From: a virus
Direction: 5' to 3' (one strand)
Virus record (IMG/VR): IMGVR_UViG_3300034061_003104
Span: 1-48,631 of that record
DNA length: 48,631 nt
Shown: one piece after another, positions 4,344-44,750 of the stretch
Layout of the letters: every line of letters starts with the position of its first letter
Position numbering within the stretch: position 1 is the first letter of the stretch
Translations under genes and position numbers: made by a program
The notes under the pieces: model-generated
Told to the model about the DNA's origin: nothing
What the model saw: the letters and a program-made list of their open reading frames with translations, nothing else
The model's database searches: none

Positions 4344-4964
4344 TTATTTAATTTCGCCTAAAATATCACGAATAATATTTTCGACCTTTTCCCACTTATT
4401 TGTTTCTGGATTTTTGACAACTCCTTCTTGAAGACTAACTTGTTCTTCTGGATACAAAAATGCTCCTCTTGTTGAAGGATTGCTAACGAAGTCAAATGCA
4501 ATTAATTCAAAATCATCTTGAACTTCATCCGCAGATTCACGGACGTTTTTACGAACGCTTCCCATACCTCTAGAACTAATACCTAATCTAATACCAGATG
4601 CAAATAATTCTTTTAGAATGTTACCGCTTGGTGTTGGCAATACTTCAACTTCACCTACCAAATCGTCACCATCCCAATACATCTTTGTTACATTATGACT
4701 TACATTCTTCAGATTAACAACGGATGATTCTGGATGATCAAGTTCACCAAGAGCACGACGTTCTTTTATGAAATTTTGTTCATATTTTTGAGATTCTCTT
4801 TCTAGAATTTCTTTTGGATAAATACGTCCATTTTGGTTCTTTGCATTTGCACGTTGAAGAACTCCTTTTACCAAAAAGGCACCGTTAGATTTCATAGCCT
4901 CACTGATAACTTCACGGCTAATCTCAAAGGACATGCAGTCCATTATTAATTTTCTTTCGTTCAT
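4344..4964 (-). CDS. gp21: Prohead core maturation protease, gp21 family
   Basis: A serine protease of the herpesvirus-assemblin/phage prohead type that cleaves scaffold, capsid and internal proteins during head maturation. At 206 residues it is close to T4 gp21. Visible motifs are NGRIYPKEIL (about 45-54), ALGELDHPE with candidate catalytic His-77, and GISSRGMGSV (about 128-138) with the candidate nucleophile serine. It ends with DFELIAFDFVSNPST, typical of the family. A self-cleavage candidate, SLQE/G, occurs near residue 180. It follows three small genes downstream of the portal gene, matching T4 order 20-67-68-21. Confidence 0.93.
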   Translation of the reverse strand: MNERKLIMDCMSFEISREVISEAMKSNGAFLVKGVLQRANAKNQNGRIYPKEILERESQKYEQNFIKERRALGELDHPESSVVNLKNVSHNVTKMYWDGDDLVGEVEVLPTPSGNILKELFASGIRLGISSRGMGSVRKNVRESADEVQDDFELIAFDFVSNPSTRGAFLYPEEQVSLQEGVVKNPETNKWEKVENIIRDILGEIK

Positions 4965-4965
4965 A

Positions 4966-5529
4966 TTAAATTCCTTTAGTTGCTACATTTTGAGTTGGTG
5001 CTGGAACGGGAACAACAGGAGAAGCATCTTTCTTTTTTGATGGAACTGAAGCGGCCCCAAGTTTCTTAATAATATAAGGAGGCTTGATGAAATACTCACT
5101 TTCCTTCTGTTTGTTTGGTTCACGACCTTTAATCACAACTACATAATTTTCATAATAGAAATCTATACTTACACTATCAACGTTCACAACATATTCTTTT
5201 TCGGGTTGACCATATCCCTTCGATGCTTGGAATTGAATTTTTTGATTTGCAATCTGACTCAAAATTTTATCTCTAAATTCATTCTTGATAGCTTCAGTTG
5301 CTTGTGACAATTTATTTTGGAAAACTTCAAGATCAAACTTTAAATTATAACTATTACCTTGTTGATCTTTGGATTGAGGTGCGGTTGGTGCAGAATCAGA
5401 TGCTGGAGCCGGTTGTTTTGGGCTTGGTGTTTGCGGTTTGGCATCAGTTTGTGATAATGCAGGTGCAGCAGGTTGAGCTGCAACTTTTGGTTCATCGGCT
5501 TCCAATATTTTTTTTAAAAAAATAGGCAT
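4966..5529 (-). CDS. Putative prohead core protein with gp21-type cleavage site
   Basis: A 187-residue protein. The N-terminus MPIFLKKILE/ADEP matches the T4 capsid-targeting pattern, with a short hydrophobic/basic peptide ending in L/I-x-E/A. It is followed by a disordered Ala/Pro/Gln-rich linker (about 15-55), a folded alpha/beta part (about 60-155) and a Pro/Ala-rich tail. It lies one base upstream of gp21, where T4 has the core proteins gp67 and gp68. A prohead core or internal protein is an inference from position and the N-terminal site; there is no clear sequence homology. Confidence 0.75.
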   Translation of the reverse strand: MPIFLKKILEADEPKVAAQPAAPALSQTDAKPQTPSPKQPAPASDSAPTAPQSKDQQGNSYNLKFDLEVFQNKLSQATEAIKNEFRDKILSQIANQKIQFQASKGYGQPEKEYVVNVDSVSIDFYYENYVVVIKGREPNKQKESEYFIKPPYIIKKLGAASVPSKKKDASPVVPVPAPTQNVATKGI

Positions 5530-5530
5530 A

Positions 5531-5959
5531 TTACTTTTTTAATTCTTTATTTGCAAGAGCAAGTAATTTAGCATAATGACGTGCATCATCTTTATGACCA
5601 AGTGATGATGCGACATTTTGTCTTCTAGCTAAAACTGCGGCATCAGCTTTTGTAATTCCTGGTTTATTTGGATCTTTAACAACGTCTGGAGTTTTTTCTT
5701 GTCCAACAGCAACAACTTTTGGTTTAGGTGCAGGATCGGCTTTCTTTTTACCTTGATCCTTACCTTCTTCTTTTACCATTTCATATCCAGTAGCAGCAGT
5801 AGCAGCACGTTCATTTCCTTTGCCTGATTTTGCAAACGCATATGGAGTCATTGCCCCAGCAATACCTGGTGTGCCGGTTCCTTCTTCCATTTCTTTACGT
5901 ATAAGTTCTTTAATTTTTTGTTTTAAAGCACCGATTAAAATTTTCTTTTTCTCGTCCAT
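5531..5959 (-). CDS. Small basic head-region protein of unknown function
   Basis: A 142-residue Lys/Ala-rich protein: an N-terminal helix (1-26), a Gly/Thr-rich turn with MEEGTGTPG, a conserved-looking patch TPYAFAKSGKGNE (about 38-50), a disordered KKADPAPKPK linker and a C-terminal helix pair (100-142). MEE/G at about 25-28 could be a gp21 cut site. The stop and start codons of its neighbours are 1 base away, showing translational coupling. It is in the T4 gp67/gp68 region, but I do not recognise the family. Confidence 0.72.
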   Translation of the reverse strand: MDEKKKILIGALKQKIKELIRKEMEEGTGTPGIAGAMTPYAFAKSGKGNERAATAATGYEMVKEEGKDQGKKKADPAPKPKVVAVGQEKTPDVVKDPNKPGITKADAAVLARRQNVASSLGHKDDARHYAKLLALANKELKK

Positions 5960-5960
5960 A

Positions 5961-6830
5961 TTATTGAATTTGGTTTTTAAGTTCCTTAATAAGTTCGTAT
6001 GAAAGTAACAACACAGTAATTTGGTTGTCTTTCAAAGATTTCTTACAATTGATAGATTCTAGTTGCTTTGTGACTTCGTTTATTTTTATTTTCAATACAT
6101 TGTCAGTAATTTTTTCCAATAAATCAGACAAAGATTCTTTGATGACATTAATTTCTTTTTCTACAAATTCGTTCAATGAATTTGTGTTGCTAATGTTATT
6201 AATATATTCCTTGAGAAGTCTCTTTTGATTGTTATCCAAGTCTTTATATTTTTCATTTAACGAATCTACCAACAATTTATAACTCAACAATCTAATATCT
6301 TCGTTTTGTTGTTTATAAAAATTTACCAAATCATCATCAGATTCGGAGATTAAATTCTTTTTACCGCACAAGTTTTCGGTGACGGTATTTCTGGATTGTA
6401 TCAATTCTTTAACTTCAAACTTAGAAGCAGAAATGACATGGTTTTCAAAAATTTTATAAATTGAGGCATGTATTTTATAATTTTTGATGCTTGACTTTAA
6501 CAAATCGTCGATTGGATAATTCTCTTTTATTTCTTTGATTAAACTATACTTTTGTTCCGTCAATTTTTTTGAATCTAATTTTTCACGTTGCTTTAAAATA
6601 ACATTTATGTATTTTTCGGCGTGTAATTCGTCTTTTGCTTTTTCGTTCAAAAGAAAATTATAAAGTTGCCATTCTTTTCCTAATTCTTTGCTCTCGGTGA
6701 AATATTTAAATAATAGATCCTTGGCAGAAGATTCGTCCTTGCCTGCCAAAATATCAGCTGTCACTTGACGAGTCAGTAATTCAAATAATATTCCTGTGTT
6801 TTTAAACTTGGAATGTTTAGCTTTTTGCAT
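5961..6830 (-). CDS. Helical protein of unknown function between portal and core genes
   Basis: A 289-residue, almost entirely alpha-helical, Lys/Glu/Leu-rich protein. The N-terminus HSKFKNTGILFELLTRQVTAD may be a conserved phage pattern, but I cannot attach a function to it. The last 60 residues may form a coiled coil. There is no membrane segment or catalytic motif. Its place directly downstream of the portal gene suggests a head-assembly or core role, which is only contextual. Confidence 0.72.
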   Translation of the reverse strand: MQKAKHSKFKNTGILFELLTRQVTADILAGKDESSAKDLLFKYFTESKELGKEWQLYNFLLNEKAKDELHAEKYINVILKQREKLDSKKLTEQKYSLIKEIKENYPIDDLLKSSIKNYKIHASIYKIFENHVISASKFEVKELIQSRNTVTENLCGKKNLISESDDDLVNFYKQQNEDIRLLSYKLLVDSLNEKYKDLDNNQKRLLKEYINNISNTNSLNEFVEKEINVIKESLSDLLEKITDNVLKIKINEVTKQLESINCKKSLKDNQITVLLLSYELIKELKNQIQ

Positions 6831-6852
6831 ATATTAAAATAATGTCTCAGTT

Positions 6853-6861
6853 TATAAATAT
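6853..6861 (-). promoter_or_regulatory. ATATTTATA element before the 289-residue gene
   Basis: The element lies in the 67-base gap after the portal gene, 22 bases before the ATG at 6830. Confidence 0.3.
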
Positions 6862-6897
6862 AATAAAATCTAGATAAAATTCATTTAATTGTAATAT

Positions 6898-8811
6898 TTA
6901 TTCCTCTATTATGTTGCTTTCGTCAAGCATTGATTTGTGCGTGGTTTCTTTTAACAAATCACGTTTAACATCTTGATGAGTTTGTAAATATTGTTTCAAT
7001 CCTTCCAAGTTTTCCAAACTTAATGGAGAACGTGTTTTTGATTGACTTCTAAGTGGATCTGTTTGAGAAACTCTAGTGTTTTCTTTGTTTCCCATAGGGT
7101 CATATCCAAACCTTGTATCTTTTCTATATTTGTGGTCGCCTGCTTGTGATGGTCTTTTTGATTTCTCGGTAATAGGTGGCGTTGTTCCTCCGCCTTTTTC
7201 AGGAGTTGGAGGCGTTTCTTTTGGTGGTTCTCCGCTAACTCCCAAATCTTGCGGAGCTTCGCCGCCAGGTAAACCTCCAGTTTCGCCGCCAGGTGCGGCA
7301 GGTTCTTCTGGTTTAATCTTATTAAATGGTTTAGCAGGATCAACACCTTCTTCTTCGATCTGCTTAAATCTATAATTGTCTTTGGCATCTTCAACAATAT
7401 CATTCTTTTGAATGTCAACGTCTTCATCAGACAATTTGAAGACATTGTTATAAATCCATTTACGGCTAAACATCTTTTGTTCAACCATGTCTTTTGCTAA
7501 TGTGACTTTATCTGACCAAATTTTTACTTTTTCCGTTTCCAAAATTACCGATGGATTTGTTAATTCAAGGTCAAAATTTACCAATTGTTCGTCGGTATAT
7601 CCTTGTGCATACAAATGAACAATTGCAATTTTTTTGAGTTCACTTACTAATATTTTTTGAATACGGTTAATTGTTTTTGCAAATCTAACATCTTCAGATG
7701 CTAATGTTGCTTTACCACTTAAATCTTCTTCATATCCCAAAAATGCTTTTGGAATTTTAAGAGCGGCTAACATCTTGTTTTTTAGATAATTTATATCATC
7801 AATACCAGTAAATTCCATTCCGCTCAATGGTTCGATGCTAGTTCCGCTATCACTGCCACGAACAGGTAGATAAAAATCTTCAACCATGTTTTGTAGGTTG
7901 AATCTCAAATTATAATCTCCGGTATTTGGATCAAGATATGGAATCTTCTTAGTTTTATTCATCAACTTTTCCATATATTGGTCAACTTCTTGTGGAGGAA
8001 TGTTACCAACATCTACTTTAAAAATACGTTTTTCAGGAGCACGCATTACACGATGGATTAACATTGCATCTTCCATCAAACTCAATTGCTTCCAAACTCT
8101 TCTACCACCTTCGATCATACTCTTACCATAGGGCAAGAAGTTACTATCACTTAATAATCTGAAATGCGCTACTTGATAATTTTCAAGTTCTTCAATCTTA
8201 CCACCCTCAGGCAAATTGATTTGAAACTTAGTATAGTTTTTATTATTTAAATCACTATTTTCTACACGGGTAACATTGTATGCACTGATTGGTTCCACCA
8301 AATAAACACCATATTCAGGACTGATATACATTTTCAAATAGAAATCACCATACTTAACAAGATTTCTGGTCCAACTCCATAAGAAAAATTCAATATTAAG
8401 AATATCATAAAACAAATTTTCAAGTATTTGTTTGATATTTGTGTCATTTGTATGAACCGTCAAAATTTTACCCAATTCATTCTTAGTAACACACTCGTCT
8501 GCATAAATATCCAATGCAGATGCGATAATTGGGTCCATATCCATGGTATCATAATCACGAAATAATTCAATACGTGCAGCTTGATAACTTAATGTGAAAT
8601 CTCTGCTGTATTGATTATATGCGCTGGTTCTAACTCTATTAAATCTATCACGTAATGTATTTCTATCAGTCGCATACATCACTTCGTCTGTATCTACGAC
8701 CTTTAGTTTCTTACCACCAATGTTACGAACTATTACATCTGTGGAAAACAAACGCTTTAACCTTGAATACAAGGAACGTTGTTTTAGTATTTGAAATTCT
8801 TCTGATGGCAT
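6898..8811 (-). CDS. gp20: Portal vertex protein, gp20 family
   Basis: This forms the dodecameric ring at the tail vertex that nucleates head assembly and is the channel for DNA packaging. It has 637 residues against 524 in T4. Typical gp20 features are an N-terminal SLYSRLKRLF, DYDTMDMDPIIASALDIYADE (about 85-105), NLVKYGDFYLK, RAPEKRIFKVDVGN (about 260-275) and GSDSGTSIEPLSG (about 320-333). The extra length is a C-terminal Pro/Gly/Lys-rich tail from about residue 500, probably disordered, ending in a short helix. Order 17-20-(small genes)-21 matches the T4 head cluster with 18/19 removed. Confidence 0.95.
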   Translation of the reverse strand: MPSEEFQILKQRSLYSRLKRLFSTDVIVRNIGGKKLKVVDTDEVMYATDRNTLRDRFNRVRTSAYNQYSRDFTLSYQAARIELFRDYDTMDMDPIIASALDIYADECVTKNELGKILTVHTNDTNIKQILENLFYDILNIEFFLWSWTRNLVKYGDFYLKMYISPEYGVYLVEPISAYNVTRVENSDLNNKNYTKFQINLPEGGKIEELENYQVAHFRLLSDSNFLPYGKSMIEGGRRVWKQLSLMEDAMLIHRVMRAPEKRIFKVDVGNIPPQEVDQYMEKLMNKTKKIPYLDPNTGDYNLRFNLQNMVEDFYLPVRGSDSGTSIEPLSGMEFTGIDDINYLKNKMLAALKIPKAFLGYEEDLSGKATLASEDVRFAKTINRIQKILVSELKKIAIVHLYAQGYTDEQLVNFDLELTNPSVILETEKVKIWSDKVTLAKDMVEQKMFSRKWIYNNVFKLSDEDVDIQKNDIVEDAKDNYRFKQIEEEGVDPAKPFNKIKPEEPAAPGGETGGLPGGEAPQDLGVSGEPPKETPPTPEKGGGTTPPITEKSKRPSQAGDHKYRKDTRFGYDPMGNKENTRVSQTDPLRSQSKTRSPLSLENLEGLKQYLQTHQDVKRDLLKETTHKSMLDESNIIEE

Positions 8812-8819
8812 ATGTTATA

Positions 8820-8828
8820 TATAAATAT
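8820..8828 (-). promoter_or_regulatory. ATATTTATA element before the portal gene
   Basis: Part of the longer run CTATATTTATATATAAC; it ends 8 bases before the portal ATG at 8811. Confidence 0.3.
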
Positions 8829-8835
8829 AGAGTGG

Positions 8836-10425
8836 TTACAATAACCACGTAAGATTTTCGGTTTTCTCGTTAAATTGACCCGTTTTCATACTCCACGCAT
8901 CGTGCGCAGATATGGATTTTGGTGTATAGATTTTATCGTTTGATACTCTTGAAATTCCACCTAACATAGATCTATTTAAATCCATACTTTGTTGACGTAA
9001 TCTTAATGCGGTATCTCTGACCCACAATCCTATACTAAAAGACATAACCAAATCATCATTATATCCTTTCATTGCAGTAGCTTTGTTTCCGTCCCAAATA
9101 AATACTGATAGTTCATCCAATAATCTCTTGGAGTAAACTACAACTGATTGTTCTCTAAAATAATTATCCAATTTTGAAATAAGTAATGGTCTTGTTTTTT
9201 GACTATTAGTGAACCCCGGAACCATTTTACGCTCGTCTCTATTGTATTTATTGGTCATTTGACGTTCAACATCAACATACTGCAAGTCTGCACTACTATA
9301 GAACGTATTTGGATATTGTCTATCTATTATTTGTTGCAATACTGCCCATCCAATATTATTATTTTCAACAATCAAGAGGGCATTATTATATTCTGTGGCG
9401 ACACTAACGAGGAAATTGCCATAGTCTTTAGTATTTATCTGTCCTTTATACTCCGCAACTTGTGTTAACGTTTCTACATCAATAACATGAAATGCACTAT
9501 AATCGGTGCTATCACCTCTAGCAACGTCCGCAGCAACTATATAATTTCTACTATAATCAGGATACTCCCAAATCCAATAACCATGATCGACTCCTCTCAT
9601 TTCTATAGGATCTTTAGCCTTTGATTGTTTATAAAATTCTACTAATTGAGAGTCTATTACAGTATTACCAGACGATAAAAATTCAGTATCACATTCTTGA
9701 GATGCTCTCTTTGGTCCTAATTCTGCGGTTTGTCTATCACGCCAAGCTTGATCACGTTCTGGGTGTCTATCCCATTTTAATCTTATTGTCTTAAATGTAT
9801 TTCTTTTACCCTCTGCATCGACCCACATTTGATGGAAGAAGTTACCTACACCATTTGGCGTTGATAACAAAATAGCTCTACCACCAGTTGCCATTGTTTG
9901 TTGTGCAGATGTCCAAACTTCTTCTGCATTATCAATAAACGCACATTCATCCATTACCAACAAGAATGCACTGAAACCACGAGCACTATCAGCGGCAGAA
10001 GACGCTGCCAAAACTCGGGATTCATTTTTAAACTTTAATGATAGACGATTATCTTCAACTGTAGGAACTTTTAACCAACTTGGAAGATTGTTGTTGGCTA
10101 ATCTTATTTTAGAAACAATTTCTTTTGATGTGTTTTGAACAGTGGATAATATTAATACGTTTTTACCAGGATTGAATATCATCGTCCATAGAGCATACGC
10201 AGATACTAACGTAGATATACCCATCTGACGTGATTTTAACACGATATTTCTATCGTGTTCTATGAAATCTTCTAACGTTTCTTCTTGGAATTCATATAAT
10301 TCAAATGGAACAATACCTCTTGTTTGATGTTGAATCTTAACATATTTCTTCATGAAATACATTGGATCAACCAAACATTTCTTATACTCGTCTTTAATTA
10401 TTTCTTTGAGGTTTTTTTGACTCAT
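8836..10425 (-). CDS. gp17: Terminase large subunit, gp17 family
   Basis: The packaging motor: an ATPase that pumps DNA through the portal plus a nuclease that cuts concatemers. It has 529 residues against 610 in T4. ATPase domain: Walker A SRQMGIST (65-72), Walker B LLVMDE (155-160), coupling motif LLSTPNG (186-192). RNase H-like nuclease domain: first acidic residue in AADVARGDSTD (D300), second in LIVENNNIG (E354), third in GYNDDLV (D457/D458). Its ATG overlaps the stop of the upstream zinc-ribbon gene (ATGA), so the two are coupled as gp16 and gp17 are in T4. Confidence 0.96.
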   Translation of the reverse strand: MSQKNLKEIIKDEYKKCLVDPMYFMKKYVKIQHQTRGIVPFELYEFQEETLEDFIEHDRNIVLKSRQMGISTLVSAYALWTMIFNPGKNVLILSTVQNTSKEIVSKIRLANNNLPSWLKVPTVEDNRLSLKFKNESRVLAASSAADSARGFSAFLLVMDECAFIDNAEEVWTSAQQTMATGGRAILLSTPNGVGNFFHQMWVDAEGKRNTFKTIRLKWDRHPERDQAWRDRQTAELGPKRASQECDTEFLSSGNTVIDSQLVEFYKQSKAKDPIEMRGVDHGYWIWEYPDYSRNYIVAADVARGDSTDYSAFHVIDVETLTQVAEYKGQINTKDYGNFLVSVATEYNNALLIVENNNIGWAVLQQIIDRQYPNTFYSSADLQYVDVERQMTNKYNRDERKMVPGFTNSQKTRPLLISKLDNYFREQSVVVYSKRLLDELSVFIWDGNKATAMKGYNDDLVMSFSIGLWVRDTALRLRQQSMDLNRSMLGGISRVSNDKIYTPKSISAHDAWSMKTGQFNEKTENLTWLL

Positions 10426-11102
10426 ACATCAAATTTACGTGCTTCTCTGTTTTTGATTGAATCTAAAACCATCTCTTTTGCTTTTTCTTCAATCGAAGAA
10501 TCATATTTAACCTTTGCAAGTTCCGAAATACACTCCGATAACTGTTTTTCAACTTCAATCTTATCTTTTTTAAGATCTTCTAAGACTTTAATCCTCTGAT
10601 CCGTGTTGTCTGTCCAAAATTCTTGACTTCCATCTTCATTAAAGTATTGTAATTTTGGATCATAATTTTCTAAGTATGTTATGCTTTCGTTTATTTTGTT
10701 TTCAAAGTCTTTAAGCTTTGAAATTCTGTCATTTAAAATACTAAACCTAGCATATTCATTAAATTTTCCTAATAATTTTAGTTTTGTGTCAAAAGTTACA
10801 CTGCAGTCAAAACATTTTCCGCAACGATTATAAACTCTCTGATCAAGATAGTTTCCAAATTTTATATCAGCGTTGCAAATTGAACATTTTTCATCGATTT
10901 TTATTCTTGATGCTTTAGGAATTCTTTTTTTAACTCCATTTTCTTTTTTCCATTTATTTCCCAAACTATCTTCCCATTCTTCGCCTTCTTTTCGGTCTTG
11001 TAATGTAGAATTTTCGTTATATCCTACTTGAATAAACGGACGATTTCCATCGACATAATCTCTAACAATTGATAAATTGCTTTTTCCAGATGCTTTTTTC
11101 AT
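10422..11102 (-). CDS. Zinc-ribbon/coiled-coil protein in the small-terminase position
   Basis: A 226-residue protein not recognised by sequence. A treble-Cys cluster (C73, C76 in CSIC; C94, C97, C100 in CGKCFDC) predicts a zinc ribbon. The N-terminal 60 residues are polar with an EEWEDSLGNKWKKENG patch; residues 110-220 form long charged helices, likely a coiled coil. It overlaps gp17 by 4 bases, where T4 has the small terminase gp16. gp16-type proteins are coiled-coil oligomers that bind DNA, so it is a positional candidate for a DNA-recognising small terminase, but gp16 itself has no such zinc cluster. Function is inferred only. Confidence 0.7.
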   Translation of the reverse strand: MKKASGKSNLSIVRDYVDGNRPFIQVGYNENSTLQDRKEGEEWEDSLGNKWKKENGVKKRIPKASRIKIDEKCSICNADIKFGNYLDQRVYNRCGKCFDCSVTFDTKLKLLGKFNEYARFSILNDRISKLKDFENKINESITYLENYDPKLQYFNEDGSQEFWTDNTDQRIKVLEDLKKDKIEVEKQLSECISELAKVKYDSSIEEKAKEMVLDSIKNREARKFDV

Positions 11103-15280: not shown

Positions 15281-18200
15281 TTAAATAAAGGAAACTTTAC
15301 TGAACCCATTTTCTTTACGTATTTCTATACGGTTATCAACCATGTCTCTCATTTGATCCAGATGACTAATTACCCATACAAAATCGAAGTTGGTTTTTAA
15401 AAATGCAAACAATGTGCTCATAGAAGACAAATTATCAGCATCCGCACATCCAAATCCTTCGTCTATAGCGATAAAGTTGGGTCTTGGGAGGTTCGAAATG
15501 TTAATTAATGCCACACGAATAGCAAGTGAACTCACGAATTTTTCCATTCCACTAGACAATTCCAACGGCCACTTTTTATCTTCATAATTTATAAAAGTGC
15601 TTACATTTTTACCATCCGTCTGAAGAGAAACTGTAAATTCAACTATCTGACTCAATATGTTATTGACTTCTTTTTCTATGGTTGGCAATGCCTGACTAAT
15701 TAATTCATAAGGAATACCGTCTCGTCCAACGGAAGAATTATACAATTCATATGCTTCATGTTTACTTTCAAGCATTTTAGCTTCTTGAATGGTCTTTTCT
15801 ATATAATTTTTTTGATCAATTGAACTATTGAGTTTAGTTTTAAGATTAATAATATCAGTATTCTTTTGTTTTATATTTGAATCCACGATCTTAATCTTAG
15901 ATTTTATAGATTCTATCTTAGATTTTATAATCTCATTAGATTCGATTACATCCTTCTGTTTATAAAATTTCTCTATTTTTTCCAAAACTACATTTAATTT
16001 GGTTTGTTCCGTCAATAATTTACTTTCAGAAGAAACAATATTGCTATTAAGTTTATTTAACTTATTCTCAGTATTAGTTTTTCTAATTTGTATATCTTTA
16101 TAGTTTTTATATTGTTGTTCAATATCCCCATAAGAATTTACATTGTTCTTTAATGTAGTATACTCTTGGAAAGTTACAAGAGCATTAGCCTTGTCGCTTT
16201 CCAACTCTTCTTTTGTTTTAATTGCATCTTTAACAAATACATTATTTGTGCAAAACTCACAATTTGGGTCATACTTATGTTGTTCAAGAGTTTTTAACTT
16301 CTCTAATTTATTATTTACAACCAATTTAATACGTTCAATTTGAGATTCTTTGGTTGAAAATTCACGTTTAACATTTACATATTCTTCATACTTTTTAACA
16401 GTGTCGTTATCTAAATATGTTTTTTCAGACAATGTTAAAGTTGATAGTTCAGATTCAATTTTTTCATAATCGACTCTTGATGAACTAATTTCATTGTTCA
16501 ATTTTAAGATATTATTCTTATAAAGAGTCTCTGATTGGGTCAGACTATGTATATTTTCTGTGCCATAATCAACCGACACCAATTTTTTGGTTTCTTCCAA
16601 AAGTTTGTTATTTTCAACATCTCTGTCTGTCATCAAATCTTCAAGACTTTGCGTCTCTGATGTCAATAAACTTGAAGATGTTTCGATGATATTGGTTAAA
16701 TTATTAAGAGTTTGCGTATAATCATTTTTCTTAAAATTTTTGATTAATACATTTATTTCCTTGCTTTTTTCTTGTGAAAGAGTAGAAAGTTTATCAAAAA
16801 TATCAAGACCCATAAACTGAGCAAGAAGTTCTTTTCTTTCAGTTTGACCCATATCAATAAAAGAACCCGTCTTATTATTTTGAATACTTAGGACTGTCAA
16901 TATGAAATCATCGTATGTTCCAACGTAATCTCTAATAATGTCATTGGTAGAACGTCTGGCTTCACCGTTAAGTTCTATAACTTTGCCACCTTCTTCTTTC
17001 CAGAACTTAACATCAACCTTCACGTTTCCTTTCTTATCAGCAAGGCCAATTCTTTCAATGAAAAAGTCTACTCCATTGACTTCAAAGTTAAATTTACATT
17101 TGAATGACATCTTTTGACTATTCAAAACGTGTGACGCTTTGAATGCACGATCACACTTATCGAAAATACAAAATGATAGAGCAGAAAGAATACTTGACTT
17201 ACCAGACGCATTATTGGCAAATAATCCAACAACATTATGCATCTTTGTAAAATCAATAATATTACCTTCACCGTAACTAAACATATTATCAAATTCAAAA
17301 ATTTTAGGTTTCCATCTGATATTTCTGACGGTTTGTTCCTTACCTAAAGACGCATTTAATTCCTTATTTATAGTATAAATCTTTTCCAAAACATCTTTAT
17401 CATCGATACCGCTTTTGTTTTTGATAAAATTAGAAATAAGCGTATTTTGATAATCGACATCTACAACACTATTGATGTTAAGGTTGGTATTATCAATAAT
17501 ATTTTTGTTAGTAATATCATTTCCGTCAACTCTCACATAAGAAACATCAATTACTTCTGAAACCTGTCGAATCTCAGAGAGAATAGACTTTACTTCAGTT
17601 GCGACAGTCTCACAACACTTCATACGAAGTCTTACCTTCTTAGGAATATCTGAAATATCTGTAACAAGGACTCCTTTATTTAGATCAACTGTATAAAATC
17701 CATAATCATTTGGAATTTCAACGTGCGTAAACGCCTTCGTTTTTAAATTCCAATATACAAATCCGTGACCTTTTAATTCTTCACCGTGAGATTGTTGTAT
17801 AGTTGAACCCGCATACACAATACATGGTTTTTGTTCAATATCGTCATATTTTTGAAGAATTTGATAACGATGGATGTCGCCTAAAAGAGCAATTTGATGT
17901 CCGTCAAATAGTTCATTTGTAATTGTTCTGCTTGAAACCTTATAACCAACATCTGTTATAGCATCGTTTACCGCACCGTGAAACAACACTATATTATATC
18001 TAGTTTCGTTTAAATAATTTTTAGGAATGTCAGCGTATTTAACATATTTTTCATGTTCGTCAAAGATCGAAAAATGATTAAATAGAATATCACCTAAAAT
18101 AAATAAACCAGATTCCTTTAAATAAAACAGATTTTCATGATTCACCGCATCTACAATGGGTGTCAAGCTATCCAATCTATTTTTATTTGCAAGGGTCGCA

Positions 18201-18481
18201 TCGTGATTACCTGCAATTAAAACTGTAGGTCTTCTATTTGCTAAGTTCTGAAGAAAATCAGAGGCGATCTTTACACATTCAGGACTCAAATCACTCTTAT
18301 TATGAAATAAATCCCCCAATACGGCAACTACAGTTGACTCTGGTGTTCTTTCAATTGCTTTATATAGTTTTTCAAACACTTCTGTGTATTCATCATGTCT
18401 TTTTGTAAGACGAATATGAACGTCAGCTATGTGAAATATGTTCGTAAACTCTTTTACCTTACAATGTAACTTTGTTGCCAT
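15281..18481 (-). CDS. gp47-gp46: Mre11-Rad50 (T4 gp47-gp46) single-chain fusion nuclease/ATPase
   Basis: A 1066-residue protein joining two subunits that are separate in T4 and in cells. Residues 1 to about 330 form a Mre11/SbcD/gp47 metallophosphoesterase: HIADVHI (D20, H22), VLGDLFHN (D57), AGNHD (91-94), LFHGA (H168), LGDIHRY (H204). Residues about 385-1066 form a Rad50/SbcC/gp46 ATPase: Walker A FANNASGKSS (421-430), long coiled coils, zinc hook CEFC (C741, C744), signature LELSSGME (973-980), Walker B FIAIDEGF (1003-1010), and H-loop VISHLD (H1040). It should process DNA ends for recombination-dependent replication. T4 gp47 plus gp46 total about 900 residues, so nothing is missing. It is 3 bases downstream of the primase gene. 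Confidence 0.95.
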   Translation of the reverse strand: MATKLHCKVKEFTNIFHIADVHIRLTKRHDEYTEVFEKLYKAIERTPESTVVAVLGDLFHNKSDLSPECVKIASDFLQNLANRRPTVLIAGNHDATLANKNRLDSLTPIVDAVNHENLFYLKESGLFILGDILFNHFSIFDEHEKYVKYADIPKNYLNETRYNIVLFHGAVNDAITDVGYKVSSRTITNELFDGHQIALLGDIHRYQILQKYDDIEQKPCIVYAGSTIQQSHGEELKGHGFVYWNLKTKAFTHVEIPNDYGFYTVDLNKGVLVTDISDIPKKVRLRMKCCETVATEVKSILSEIRQVSEVIDVSYVRVDGNDITNKNIIDNTNLNINSVVDVDYQNTLISNFIKNKSGIDDKDVLEKIYTINKELNASLGKEQTVRNIRWKPKIFEFDNMFSYGEGNIIDFTKMHNVVGLFANNASGKSSILSALSFCIFDKCDRAFKASHVLNSQKMSFKCKFNFEVNGVDFFIERIGLADKKGNVKVDVKFWKEEGGKVIELNGEARRSTNDIIRDYVGTYDDFILTVLSIQNNKTGSFIDMGQTERKELLAQFMGLDIFDKLSTLSQEKSKEINVLIKNFKKNDYTQTLNNLTNIIETSSSLLTSETQSLEDLMTDRDVENNKLLEETKKLVSVDYGTENIHSLTQSETLYKNNILKLNNEISSSRVDYEKIESELSTLTLSEKTYLDNDTVKKYEEYVNVKREFSTKESQIERIKLVVNNKLEKLKTLEQHKYDPNCEFCTNNVFVKDAIKTKEELESDKANALVTFQEYTTLKNNVNSYGDIEQQYKNYKDIQIRKTNTENKLNKLNSNIVSSESKLLTEQTKLNVVLEKIEKFYKQKDVIESNEIIKSKIESIKSKIKIVDSNIKQKNTDIINLKTKLNSSIDQKNYIEKTIQEAKMLESKHEAYELYNSSVGRDGIPYELISQALPTIEKEVNNILSQIVEFTVSLQTDGKNVSTFINYEDKKWPLELSSGMEKFVSSLAIRVALINISNLPRPNFIAIDEGFGCADADNLSSMSTLFAFLKTNFDFVWVISHLDQMRDMVDNRIEIRKENGFSKVSFI

Positions 18482-18484
18482 AAT

Positions 18485-19426
18485 TTATATCAAAACCTTT
18501 AACTTAAATAGTTTCTCAAAGTCTATAGTATCACAACTATCTATCAACTCCCAAGTTTTTTCAAAACCCATAACGCTTGGGTCTTTGTCTTTCAATGGAA
18601 TCAACTTGGTTTTTATTCCATTCTTCACTAAGAATTCGCAGATTTTAATAGAATCCGAAATTGCGTCATTATCCAACATTACATTCACCATTGGAACATC
18701 ATACTCTAATAGTTTTAACTTTAATTTATTACTCAAAGTCTTTCCAAAAAGAGGTATAGTATTTGTTTTAACACTTATCGCATCAAATGGTCCCTCTACC
18801 AAAGTAATTGGTTCTTCAAAATTGACCAATAGTTCAAATCCAACGATGTTTTTTGAAAATGGGCAGCTTACATATTTTAATCCTTTCGTGTCATAGAAAC
18901 TTCTCGCCGTATAAAAATTCAAATGACCGTATTCATCATATGAAGGTATAATAATTCTATTCTTCAAATCACCTTCAGTTGCATATCCGATACAATAACG
19001 TAAAATATCTTCCTTGTTTATGCCTCTATTCTTTAAATAAACCAAAGCGTGACGATATTCTAATTCTGATGACGGTTCCCACATGGGTTTATATTCCTTT
19101 GGAAGTTGAAGAAGTGATTTTTGTTCTTCGACATCATCAAATGAAATAGAAAATTCTTTATTCTGCTTAAAAGTTTTAGTTTCACTTAAAAACTCATAAT
19201 ATGAAGTGGGTGCTCCTAATTTTTTAAATAATGTTTTAAAATTAAGACCTCCAAATCCACAAACCCAACAGTGATACTTACCTGTAACAATATTAACTTC
19301 TAATTTTCTTTTATAATGTTTACATTTGGGACAAAAATATACCGCATCAGTTCCTTTTCTAATCTTAGGAGTCTGATTCAATAGTTTATTTAAATTACTT
19401 AGTATATTTTCTTGATACAACGACAT
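18485..19426 (-). CDS. gp61: DNA primase, gp61/DnaG type
   Basis: Makes RNA primers for lagging-strand synthesis with the replicative helicase. A zinc-binding domain (C32, C35 in FCPKC; C53, C56 in CWVCGFGG) is followed by a linker and a TOPRIM catalytic domain: NRIIIPSYDEYGHLNFYTAR (156-175), LVEGPFDAIS with E211 (209-218), VMLDNDAI with D252/D254, and KDKDPS (279-284). At 313 residues it is close to T4 gp61 (342), with no helicase domain fused. It sits in a tight cluster with the nuclease fusion downstream and the DUF2786-like and RuvC-like genes upstream. Confidence 0.9.
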   Translation of the reverse strand: MSLYQENILSNLNKLLNQTPKIRKGTDAVYFCPKCKHYKRKLEVNIVTGKYHCWVCGFGGLNFKTLFKKLGAPTSYYEFLSETKTFKQNKEFSISFDDVEEQKSLLQLPKEYKPMWEPSSELEYRHALVYLKNRGINKEDILRYCIGYATEGDLKNRIIIPSYDEYGHLNFYTARSFYDTKGLKYVSCPFSKNIVGFELLVNFEEPITLVEGPFDAISVKTNTIPLFGKTLSNKLKLKLLEYDVPMVNVMLDNDAISDSIKICEFLVKNGIKTKLIPLKDKDPSVMGFEKTWELIDSCDTIDFEKLFKLKVLI

Positions 19427-44267: not shown

Positions 44268-44750
44268 TTACTTAATCGTAACTTTTCTTATTTCAGTCAT
44301 CGCAGGTTTTACCTTATTGAGAGTAATTAATAAAATACCATTTTCAAAAGTTGCTGATACGGTATCTTTATCAATATTTTCCCCTAAAGTAAATGATCTA
44401 CGAAAACTAGAACGTTTCAATTCTCGTCTAATATATTTTCCACCTTGAGAATCTGTAACATTTTTACTTTTACCTCCACTGACTGTAAGCACATTTTGTT
44501 CCACTTCAACATTTACATCTTGTTTACTTAAACCTGGAACTTCGGCTTCTATAACAACTTTATCACTGTAATCAATAACGTCTACTCTTGGATAAGACCC
44601 CTTTTCAAAAAAGTCTACACCAAATTCTTGGCTGAAATTAGGGACGTTTGCTTTAAAAAATTCATCGAAAATTTGATCAAATGGAGTTAAAAACTCATCA
44701 CGATGAACTGCACGAAATAACGGATTAGTTTGATATTTTACTACTGACAT
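44268..44750 (-). CDS. hsp20: Small heat-shock protein, Hsp20/alpha-crystallin family
   Basis: A 160-residue ATP-independent chaperone that holds unfolding proteins. Clear alpha-crystallin domain from about 52 to 145: YPRVDVIDYSDKVVIEAEVPGLSKQDVNVEVEQNVLTVSG, then RRELKRSSFRRSFTLGENID and the signature AxxxNGILxITL (ATFENGILLITL, about 131-142). The N-terminal arm has FDQIFDEFF. The final I-x-I/V motif (VTIK) is partly present. Hsp20 genes are common in marine T4-like phages. A long leader with a late-promoter-like element, hairpin and Shine-Dalgarno lies upstream and a terminator downstream: a single-gene unit. Confidence 0.96.
   Translation of the reverse strand: MSVVKYQTNPLFRAVHRDEFLTPFDQIFDEFFKANVPNFSQEFGVDFFEKGSYPRVDVIDYSDKVVIEAEVPGLSKQDVNVEVEQNVLTVSGGKSKNVTDSQGGKYIRRELKRSSFRRSFTLGENIDKDTVSATFENGILLITLNKVKPAMTEIRKVTIK

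Follow-up and report, generated by a model that had tools for sequence, protein, structure and literature searches.

We found that a single gene in the IMG/VR virus record IMGVR_UViG_3300034061_003104 encodes both halves of the Mre11-Rad50 (SbcD-SbcC) complex in one reading frame. The window, that is, the whole stretch of DNA that we analysed, is the entire record (48,631 bases). The gene occupies 15281-18481 on the minus strand, begins with an ATG at 18481, ends with a stop codon at 15281-15283, and specifies 1066 amino acids with no internal stop. It very probably encodes a single-chain Mre11-Rad50 enzyme of the type of Mimivirus R555, produced by a T4-like myophage of aquatic bacteria and acting by the dimer mechanism proposed below. 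R555 was described in 2011 as a fusion of Mre11 and Rad50 by Yoshida, Claverie and Ogata (PMC3175470).

Domains and conserved residues of the fusion protein

The fusion protein matched Pfam Metallophos at residues 14-205 (expect value, E, 2e-11) and AAA_23 at residues 398-632 (E 4e-9). It also matched the PHROGs families phrog_100 (SbcD) at residues 5-378 (E 6e-24) and phrog_77 (SbcC) at residues 273-1064 (E 3e-41). A first-pass annotation of this DNA had placed the nuclease and ATPase motifs at particular residues of one uninterrupted frame, and these matches, together with an alignment of 32 members of the clade, bear out that placement. The features are listed in Table 1.

Table 1. Features of the fused Mre11-Rad50 gene and the gene directly upstream of it.
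Feature	Position	Strand	Basis
Fused Mre11-Rad50 (SbcD-SbcC) gene, 1066 codons plus stop	15281..18481	minus	Frame; Pfam and PHROGs; one-frame homologues in 167 other loci
Mre11/SbcD calcineurin-like nuclease domain, residues 14-255; ligands D20, H22, D57, N92, H168, D202, H204	17717..18442	minus	
Capping domain, residues 260-317, strand-strand-helix-strand	17531..17704	minus	AlphaFold2 model
Probable flexible linker from cap to helix-loop-helix, residues 319-341	17459..17527	minus	Low model confidence; variable alignment
Helix-loop-helix, residues 342-356 and 362-377, presumed Rad50-binding domain of Mre11	17351..17458	minus	Two models
Tether from Mre11 to Rad50, residues 378-388 (11 residues)	17318..17350	minus	AlphaFold2 model
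Rad50 N-terminal ATPase lobe, residues 389-558; Walker A 422-429	16808..17317	minus	Pfam, motifs, model
Rad50 coiled-coil arm 1, residues 560-733	16283..16804	minus	Model
Zinc hook CEFC, C741 and C744	16250..16261	minus	Invariant in alignment
Rad50 coiled-coil arm 2, residues 748-918	15728..16240	minus	Model
Rad50 C-terminal ATPase lobe, residues 923-1066; signature S977-G-M-E980, Walker B 1003-1008, H1040	15284..15715	minus	
DnaG-type primase gene, directly upstream of the fusion	18485..19426	minus	phrog_47 (E 4e-38); Pfam DNAG_N; synteny

The protein has the sequence features of the Mre11-Rad50/SbcCD superfamily. The nuclease part contains the DxH, GDxxD, GNHD/E, H and GxxH motifs, and the Rad50 part is a bipartite ABC ATPase with a coiled coil and a CxxC zinc hook. 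D20, D57, N92, H93, H168, H204, the GKS at 427-429, C741 and C744 are invariant in the 32 clade members, as are S977-G978-x-E980, D1007-E1008 and H1040; the sole exception to motif invariance is one H22Q. The hook cysteines C741 and C744 are also invariant across the other fused and split homologues that we aligned. The first-pass claim that all the nuclease motifs occur holds for the motifs it listed. All seven metal-ligand positions are kept, with one qualification for the seventh: the equivalent of His206 of P. furiosus Mre11 is Asp202 (GDIH, not GHxH), and this Asp is invariant in the 32 members. Aligned D12 proteins of T5-type phages and most other fused homologues also have Asp at this position, and T4 and E. 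coli have His.

The whole gene appears to be under purifying selection. Ratios of nonsynonymous to synonymous substitution rates (dN/dS) were ~0.02-0.2 in most of the regions for which dS was measurable, and 0.06-0.18 for the junction (residues 346-392); these figures are rough because many dS values are near saturation. Within the helix-loop-helix region, YQN-LI and N372 are conserved. The linker (residues 319-341) is gappy and variable in the alignments. Residue propensities at the junction were uninformative.

Structure models and fold matches

We compared two AlphaFold2 models: a full-length model built from 38 sequences (mean predicted local distance difference test score, pLDDT, 82; predicted template modelling score, pTM, 0.45) and a model of residues 1-392 (pTM 0.71). 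Both contain the nuclease, a cap extending to residue 317, a low-confidence stretch at ~319-339, and helices at 342-356 and 362-377. The helix pair had pLDDT values of ~72-89, compared to ~31 for residues 321-330. In position and form, the two modelled helices match the Rad50-binding helix-loop-helix of Mre11, and we presume that they are its counterpart. In the full-length model, 11 residues connect the end of the helices to the first Rad50 strand at residue 389, and the hook lies between the coiled-coil arms. It had been estimated from the T. maritima complex that 9-12 residues are needed to span the ~28 Å from the C-terminus of Mre11 to the N-terminus of Rad50 (PMC3175470). The modelled tether falls inside this range.

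Foldseek searches of the PDB gave Mre11-Rad50 and SMC structures as the best matches (for example, 7zr1, 7yzp and 3av0), and Mre11/SbcD structures for the Mre11 part (3qg5, 6s6v and 3tho). Among predicted viral structures, the first nine matches were mostly DNA-repair proteins of giant viruses (Tupanvirus, Yasminevirus, Harvfovirus, Catovirus and others) of similar length, followed by proteins of the jumbo phages pT24, PTm1 and PAU.

Distribution of the fusion

A scan of IMG/VR with the single protein found 33 loci. An alignment-based scan found at least 590 relatives among the 600 candidate stretches listed, with chance excluded. Of the first 113 loci, 96 had the two halves in one frame; after further scans this was so for 167 loci other than that of the window, a number that includes some contigs fetched twice. 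The first-pass annotation had asked whether the fusion is a trait of a clade, and these counts indicate that it is. These sequences show the fusion to be the usual form that Mre11-Rad50 takes among a large group of aquatic T4-like phages with hardly any cultured members, represented by at least 590 IMG/VR stretches. Homologues of R555 were previously found to be abundant in aquatic viral fractions, beside phage genes including those for primases, and many were proposed to be phage-borne (PMC3175470). Our data support the suggestion made then that R555-type proteins have a main reservoir in phages.

Three genome contigs (L110, L111 and L112), binned as Chloroflexi, Nitrosopelagicus and an unnamed bacterium, also carry this fusion (37-41% identical). 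A phage primase adjoins the fusion in two of the three, so these are probably mis-binned phage contigs.

Two loci have other interruptions of the frame. In L071 there is an in-frame TAG (~7785) at a nearly invariant Gln (Q945), which could be a mutation, an error or a suppressed codon; the neighbouring genes gave no sign of TAG recoding and do not need it. In L064 there is a deletion and frameshift (~7174-7305) near residue 775, downstream from the zinc hook, consistent with a decayed gene or an assembly error.

Neighbouring genes

The primase gene ends 3 nt before the ATG of the fusion, and a table of synteny indicated that the primase is kept as the neighbour in nearly all related loci. A RuvC-like resolvase is also among the neighbours. 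The virion genes are T4-like (Gp23, the Gp20 portal, an S77 protease and the sheath). By terminase and capsid, the closest cultured relatives are Flavobacterium phage immuto and Microcystis phage Mel-JY01 (50-54% identity). Elsewhere in the window is a gene for an Hsp20 small heat-shock protein (44268-44750, minus strand; Pfam HSP20, E 1e-23).

Phage immuto (MW353177; L212) has a PD-(D/E)XK/Cas4-like exonuclease (6352-7134) in the slot after the primase, and its genome gave no match to the SbcC family (phrog_77). This is an apparent non-homologous replacement of one end-processing nuclease by another. We had considered that immuto might contain a split Mre11-Rad50, given its order of primase, 'exonuclease' and a coding sequence (CDS) of 907 amino acids. 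We rejected this: the exonuclease is of the PD-(D/E)XK/Cas4 kind, phrog_77 has no match, and the 907-amino-acid protein is unrelated. That protein (8115-10838) is annotated as a NadR-type nicotinamide mononucleotide adenylyltransferase and has only weak nucleotidyltransferase and peptidase-like matches in Pfam.

One chain or two

The gene would be expected to yield one chain. No stop, frameshift or credible internal start, the signs of two separate proteins named in the first-pass annotation, was found near codons 330-390. Nonetheless, two proteins could be made in vivo: an internal start could give free Rad50 alongside the fusion, or cleavage at the tether could divide the chain, and in either case an ordinary two-subunit complex would result. 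The tether region (residues 380-392) had low confidence in the model of residues 1-392, and a two-chain version is tolerated in several relatives (L084, L137-L140 and two other lineages; see below). However, no start codon in residues 286-399 was common to more than 9 of 26 sequences. Across residues 280-424, M400 alone among the in-frame start codons is conserved in all 26. We rejected it as the start of a free Rad50: M400 sits within the first Rad50 strand, which would be deleted, and no Shine-Dalgarno-like sequence precedes it. Its position and the missing Shine-Dalgarno-like sequence disfavour a free Rad50 without proving what protein is made. In addition, the natural splits in the relatives fall at residues 207-219, away from the junction. 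We therefore regard production of two proteins as improbable.

An artefact of assembly joining two adjacent genes, to be considered for any metagenomic contig, is refuted: many metagenomes have yielded independent contigs with this fusion (40-100% identity), and it is also found in the cultured phage Mel-JY01, whose genome is complete.

Proposed mechanism

We propose that two chains of the fusion protein would dimerise through their Rad50 ATPase heads, with ATP, and through their Mre11 domains, bringing together the activities of the usual 2:2 assembly. The helix-loop-helix (residues 342-377) would dock on the root of the Rad50 coiled coil of its own chain, held by the 11-residue tether, and the flexible linker (residues 319-341) could let the nuclease shift from a resting to a cutting position and back. 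DNA ends would be bridged by the coiled coils and zinc hook. The enzyme would process ends of phage DNA for recombination-dependent replication and repair, the role of gp46/gp47 in T4. The primase and RuvC-like resolvase neighbours and the nuclease replacement in immuto may be taken as circumstantial support for a role in end processing. It had also been suggested that fusion fixes the stoichiometry and geometry of the complex. It may do so, and joining the two covalently at 1:1 is in keeping with the known 2:2 complex.

Alternatively, this could be an SMC-like factor that has degenerated or been repurposed, for example for an anti-defence or structural function, rather than an active nuclease that processes ends. 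At one ligand position His is replaced by Asp (D202), and the gene is in the virion-gene module, between the genes for tail sheath and primase. However, strong purifying selection acts on all the catalytic and ATPase residues, and the same Asp is found in T5-type D12 proteins and most other fused homologues. The change in immuto also fits replacement of one nuclease by another. Based on these observations, we think that a repurposed factor is unlikely and that the protein is probably an active nuclease.

Three points weigh against the proposal of a single-chain, R555-type enzyme acting as a dimer. First, the pTM of the full-length model was low (0.45), so that the placement of the nuclease relative to the ATPase is not predicted. 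Second, at least three lineages tolerate a break in the nuclease domain, so a covalent single chain is not strictly required. Third, the link to R555 comes from the fold search and published features, rather than from a tree that includes R555.

Relatives in which the fusion gene is in two frames

The more unusual part of the data is a set of relatives in which, judged from sequence, the gene is in two frames: L023 (4980-8326), L036, L084 (the same as L135; 4971-8305), L137, L138, L139 and L140. In every case the break follows GDIH, in a loop (residues 207-219) that separates two nuclease strands. L084 and L137-L140 form one clade, and L023, L036 and L084 grouped with different intact relatives in the tree, which points to at least three origins or inheritances of the break. 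All the N-terminal pieces carry a short extra tail with a common pattern, roughly VV-EDEL--YL-SG-YEL. The two frames overlap by ATGA in L084, L139 and L140, whereas the overlap in L138 is 14 nt long and the frames of L137 and L023 do not touch. Comparing L137 to L138, the dN/dS of the C-terminal half was 0.04, indicating that the split pieces are kept; the tails evolve faster.

In L036 (LR756508.1, a 484-kb phage), an open reading frame of 305 amino acids (5662-6579) lies between the halves. With its clusters of Cys and a TnsA-like endonuclease domain (Pfam, E 6e-6), it is a candidate homing endonuclease. Among the three split lineages, only L036 has an endonuclease-like open reading frame in the split. 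There was no Rfam match to a group I or group II intron at the gathering threshold at the splits in L023 and L036, and we rejected an intron as the cause. The extra DNA appears to be the tail plus the endonuclease-like open reading frame in L036, and a short remnant in L023. In nrdA of phage Aeh1, a gene in pieces, the two parts form an active enzyme (PMC2988022). The arrangement in L036 is reminiscent of Aeh1 nrdA, and the split fusion genes may be of that type.

One other relative, L082 (a 303-kb contig; 4959-9122), has an in-frame insert of ~330 amino acids directly after GNHD. The insert starts with Cys and ends with ISICGN before a Cys, and looks like an intein at a motif of the nuclease active site.

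We think it fairly likely that Mre11 and Rad50 were fused in this clade and then re-divided in three lineages at the same surface loop of the nuclease, probably by insertion of a homing endonuclease. The products would be an N-terminal piece with the seven ligands and a C-terminal piece with the cap, helix-loop-helix and Rad50, encoded in coupled frames and under selection. If so, these phages offer separate, fused and differently divided forms of one complex, a natural series with which to test which covalent links are needed.

Comparison with known fusions and split pairs

The first-pass annotation had labelled the protein a T4-type gp47-gp46. The virion is T4-like, but the label does not fit the enzyme. 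T4 gp47 and gp46 have the same two activities encoded by two genes, and the pair is almost undetectable by sequence: with phmmer (Z=100,000), gp46 matched the fusion protein with E 0.54 and gp47 with E 9.3; for comparison, E. coli SbcC gave 1.3e-11 and the D13 of a T5-type phage 2.5e-14. In structure comparisons, fused proteins of the Mimiviridae type are the best matches. We rejected membership in the T4 gp47/gp46 group: there is one gene here, the sequence matches D13 and SbcC better than the T4 pair, and the trees likewise do not put T4-type pairs closest to it. The T5-type D12/D13 proteins (PR1, PG07) have the same activities from two genes that are adjacent, nuclease then ATPase, as in Aeromonas phage 31. 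E. coli SbcD and SbcC have the same domains and motifs, also from two genes, and much longer coiled coils; the span equivalent to K428-C741 is 463 residues in SbcC and 313 in the fusion.

A close known match in a cultured phage is in Mel-JY01 (PP395634), in which CDS WWT39521.1 ('AAA domain containing protein') has the same architecture and length (40-42% identity). A primase is nearby, and the major capsid protein and terminase are 53% and 50% identical to those of the analysed phage. Unlike the analysed phage, Mel-JY01 belongs to a separate sublineage and has an open reading frame of 57 codons between primase and fusion. In its complete 190-kb genome, the sole Metallophos match and the sole strong match to the SbcC family fall in the fusion gene; two weak extra phrog_77 matches (E 7e-6 and 2e-4) are in coiled-coil stretches. 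That is, the fusion is present as a single copy.

Novelty had been implied for the fusion, but descriptions of such fusions from viruses, bacteria, plasmids and eukaryotes date back to 2011, when twelve were listed in addition to R555, in bacteria, eukaryotes, plasmids and Bacillus phage 0305phi8-36 (PMC3175470). Many phages in culture have one too. Using tblastn, Pfam and annotation, we identified single-CDS fusions in the jumbo phages PAU, pT24 (in which the Metallophos half alone passes Pfam and the ATPase half is assigned from alignment and fold), PTm1 and MA9V-1, and in phiLo, IME392, RHph_TM30, Carin-5, GN1 (in which the N-terminal part is without the first motifs) and Vibrio phage 150E35-1. 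These are very divergent, and their tethers and coiled coils differ in length. Trees of the two halves agree on the groups: the clade of the window, the PAU group and the phiLo group are each on one side of a branch. The branches are long, and split pairs interleave with the three fused groups, so these unrooted trees are compatible with one fusion event or with several.

A single-chain Mre11-Rad50 is convenient for structural work and mutagenesis because each nuclease is tied to a known ATPase, and the relatives split within the nuclease domain are natural controls.

By fold and published features, the system described here resembles R555 and its relatives. In both, Mre11 is followed by Rad50 in one frame, with a helix-loop-helix and a short tether, and both are abundant in aquatic viruses beside phage primases. 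Both also have Asp in place of P. furiosus His206 (Asp242 in R555; PMC3175470). The homologues from giant viruses (Tupanvirus, Catovirus and Klosneuvirus), our best fold matches, align over nearly their full length with 20-27% identity. Unlike R555, the fusion is in the genome of a T4-like bacteriophage, and its coiled coils are shorter (1066 amino acids in total, compared to 1351 for R555). R555 is reported to have His for the third Asp of the DXH/GDXXD/GNHD pattern, whereas D20, D57 and D94 are all present here. The concept of the fusion has thus been known since 2011, and the clade analysed here is what the 2011 paper predicted for aquatic phages.

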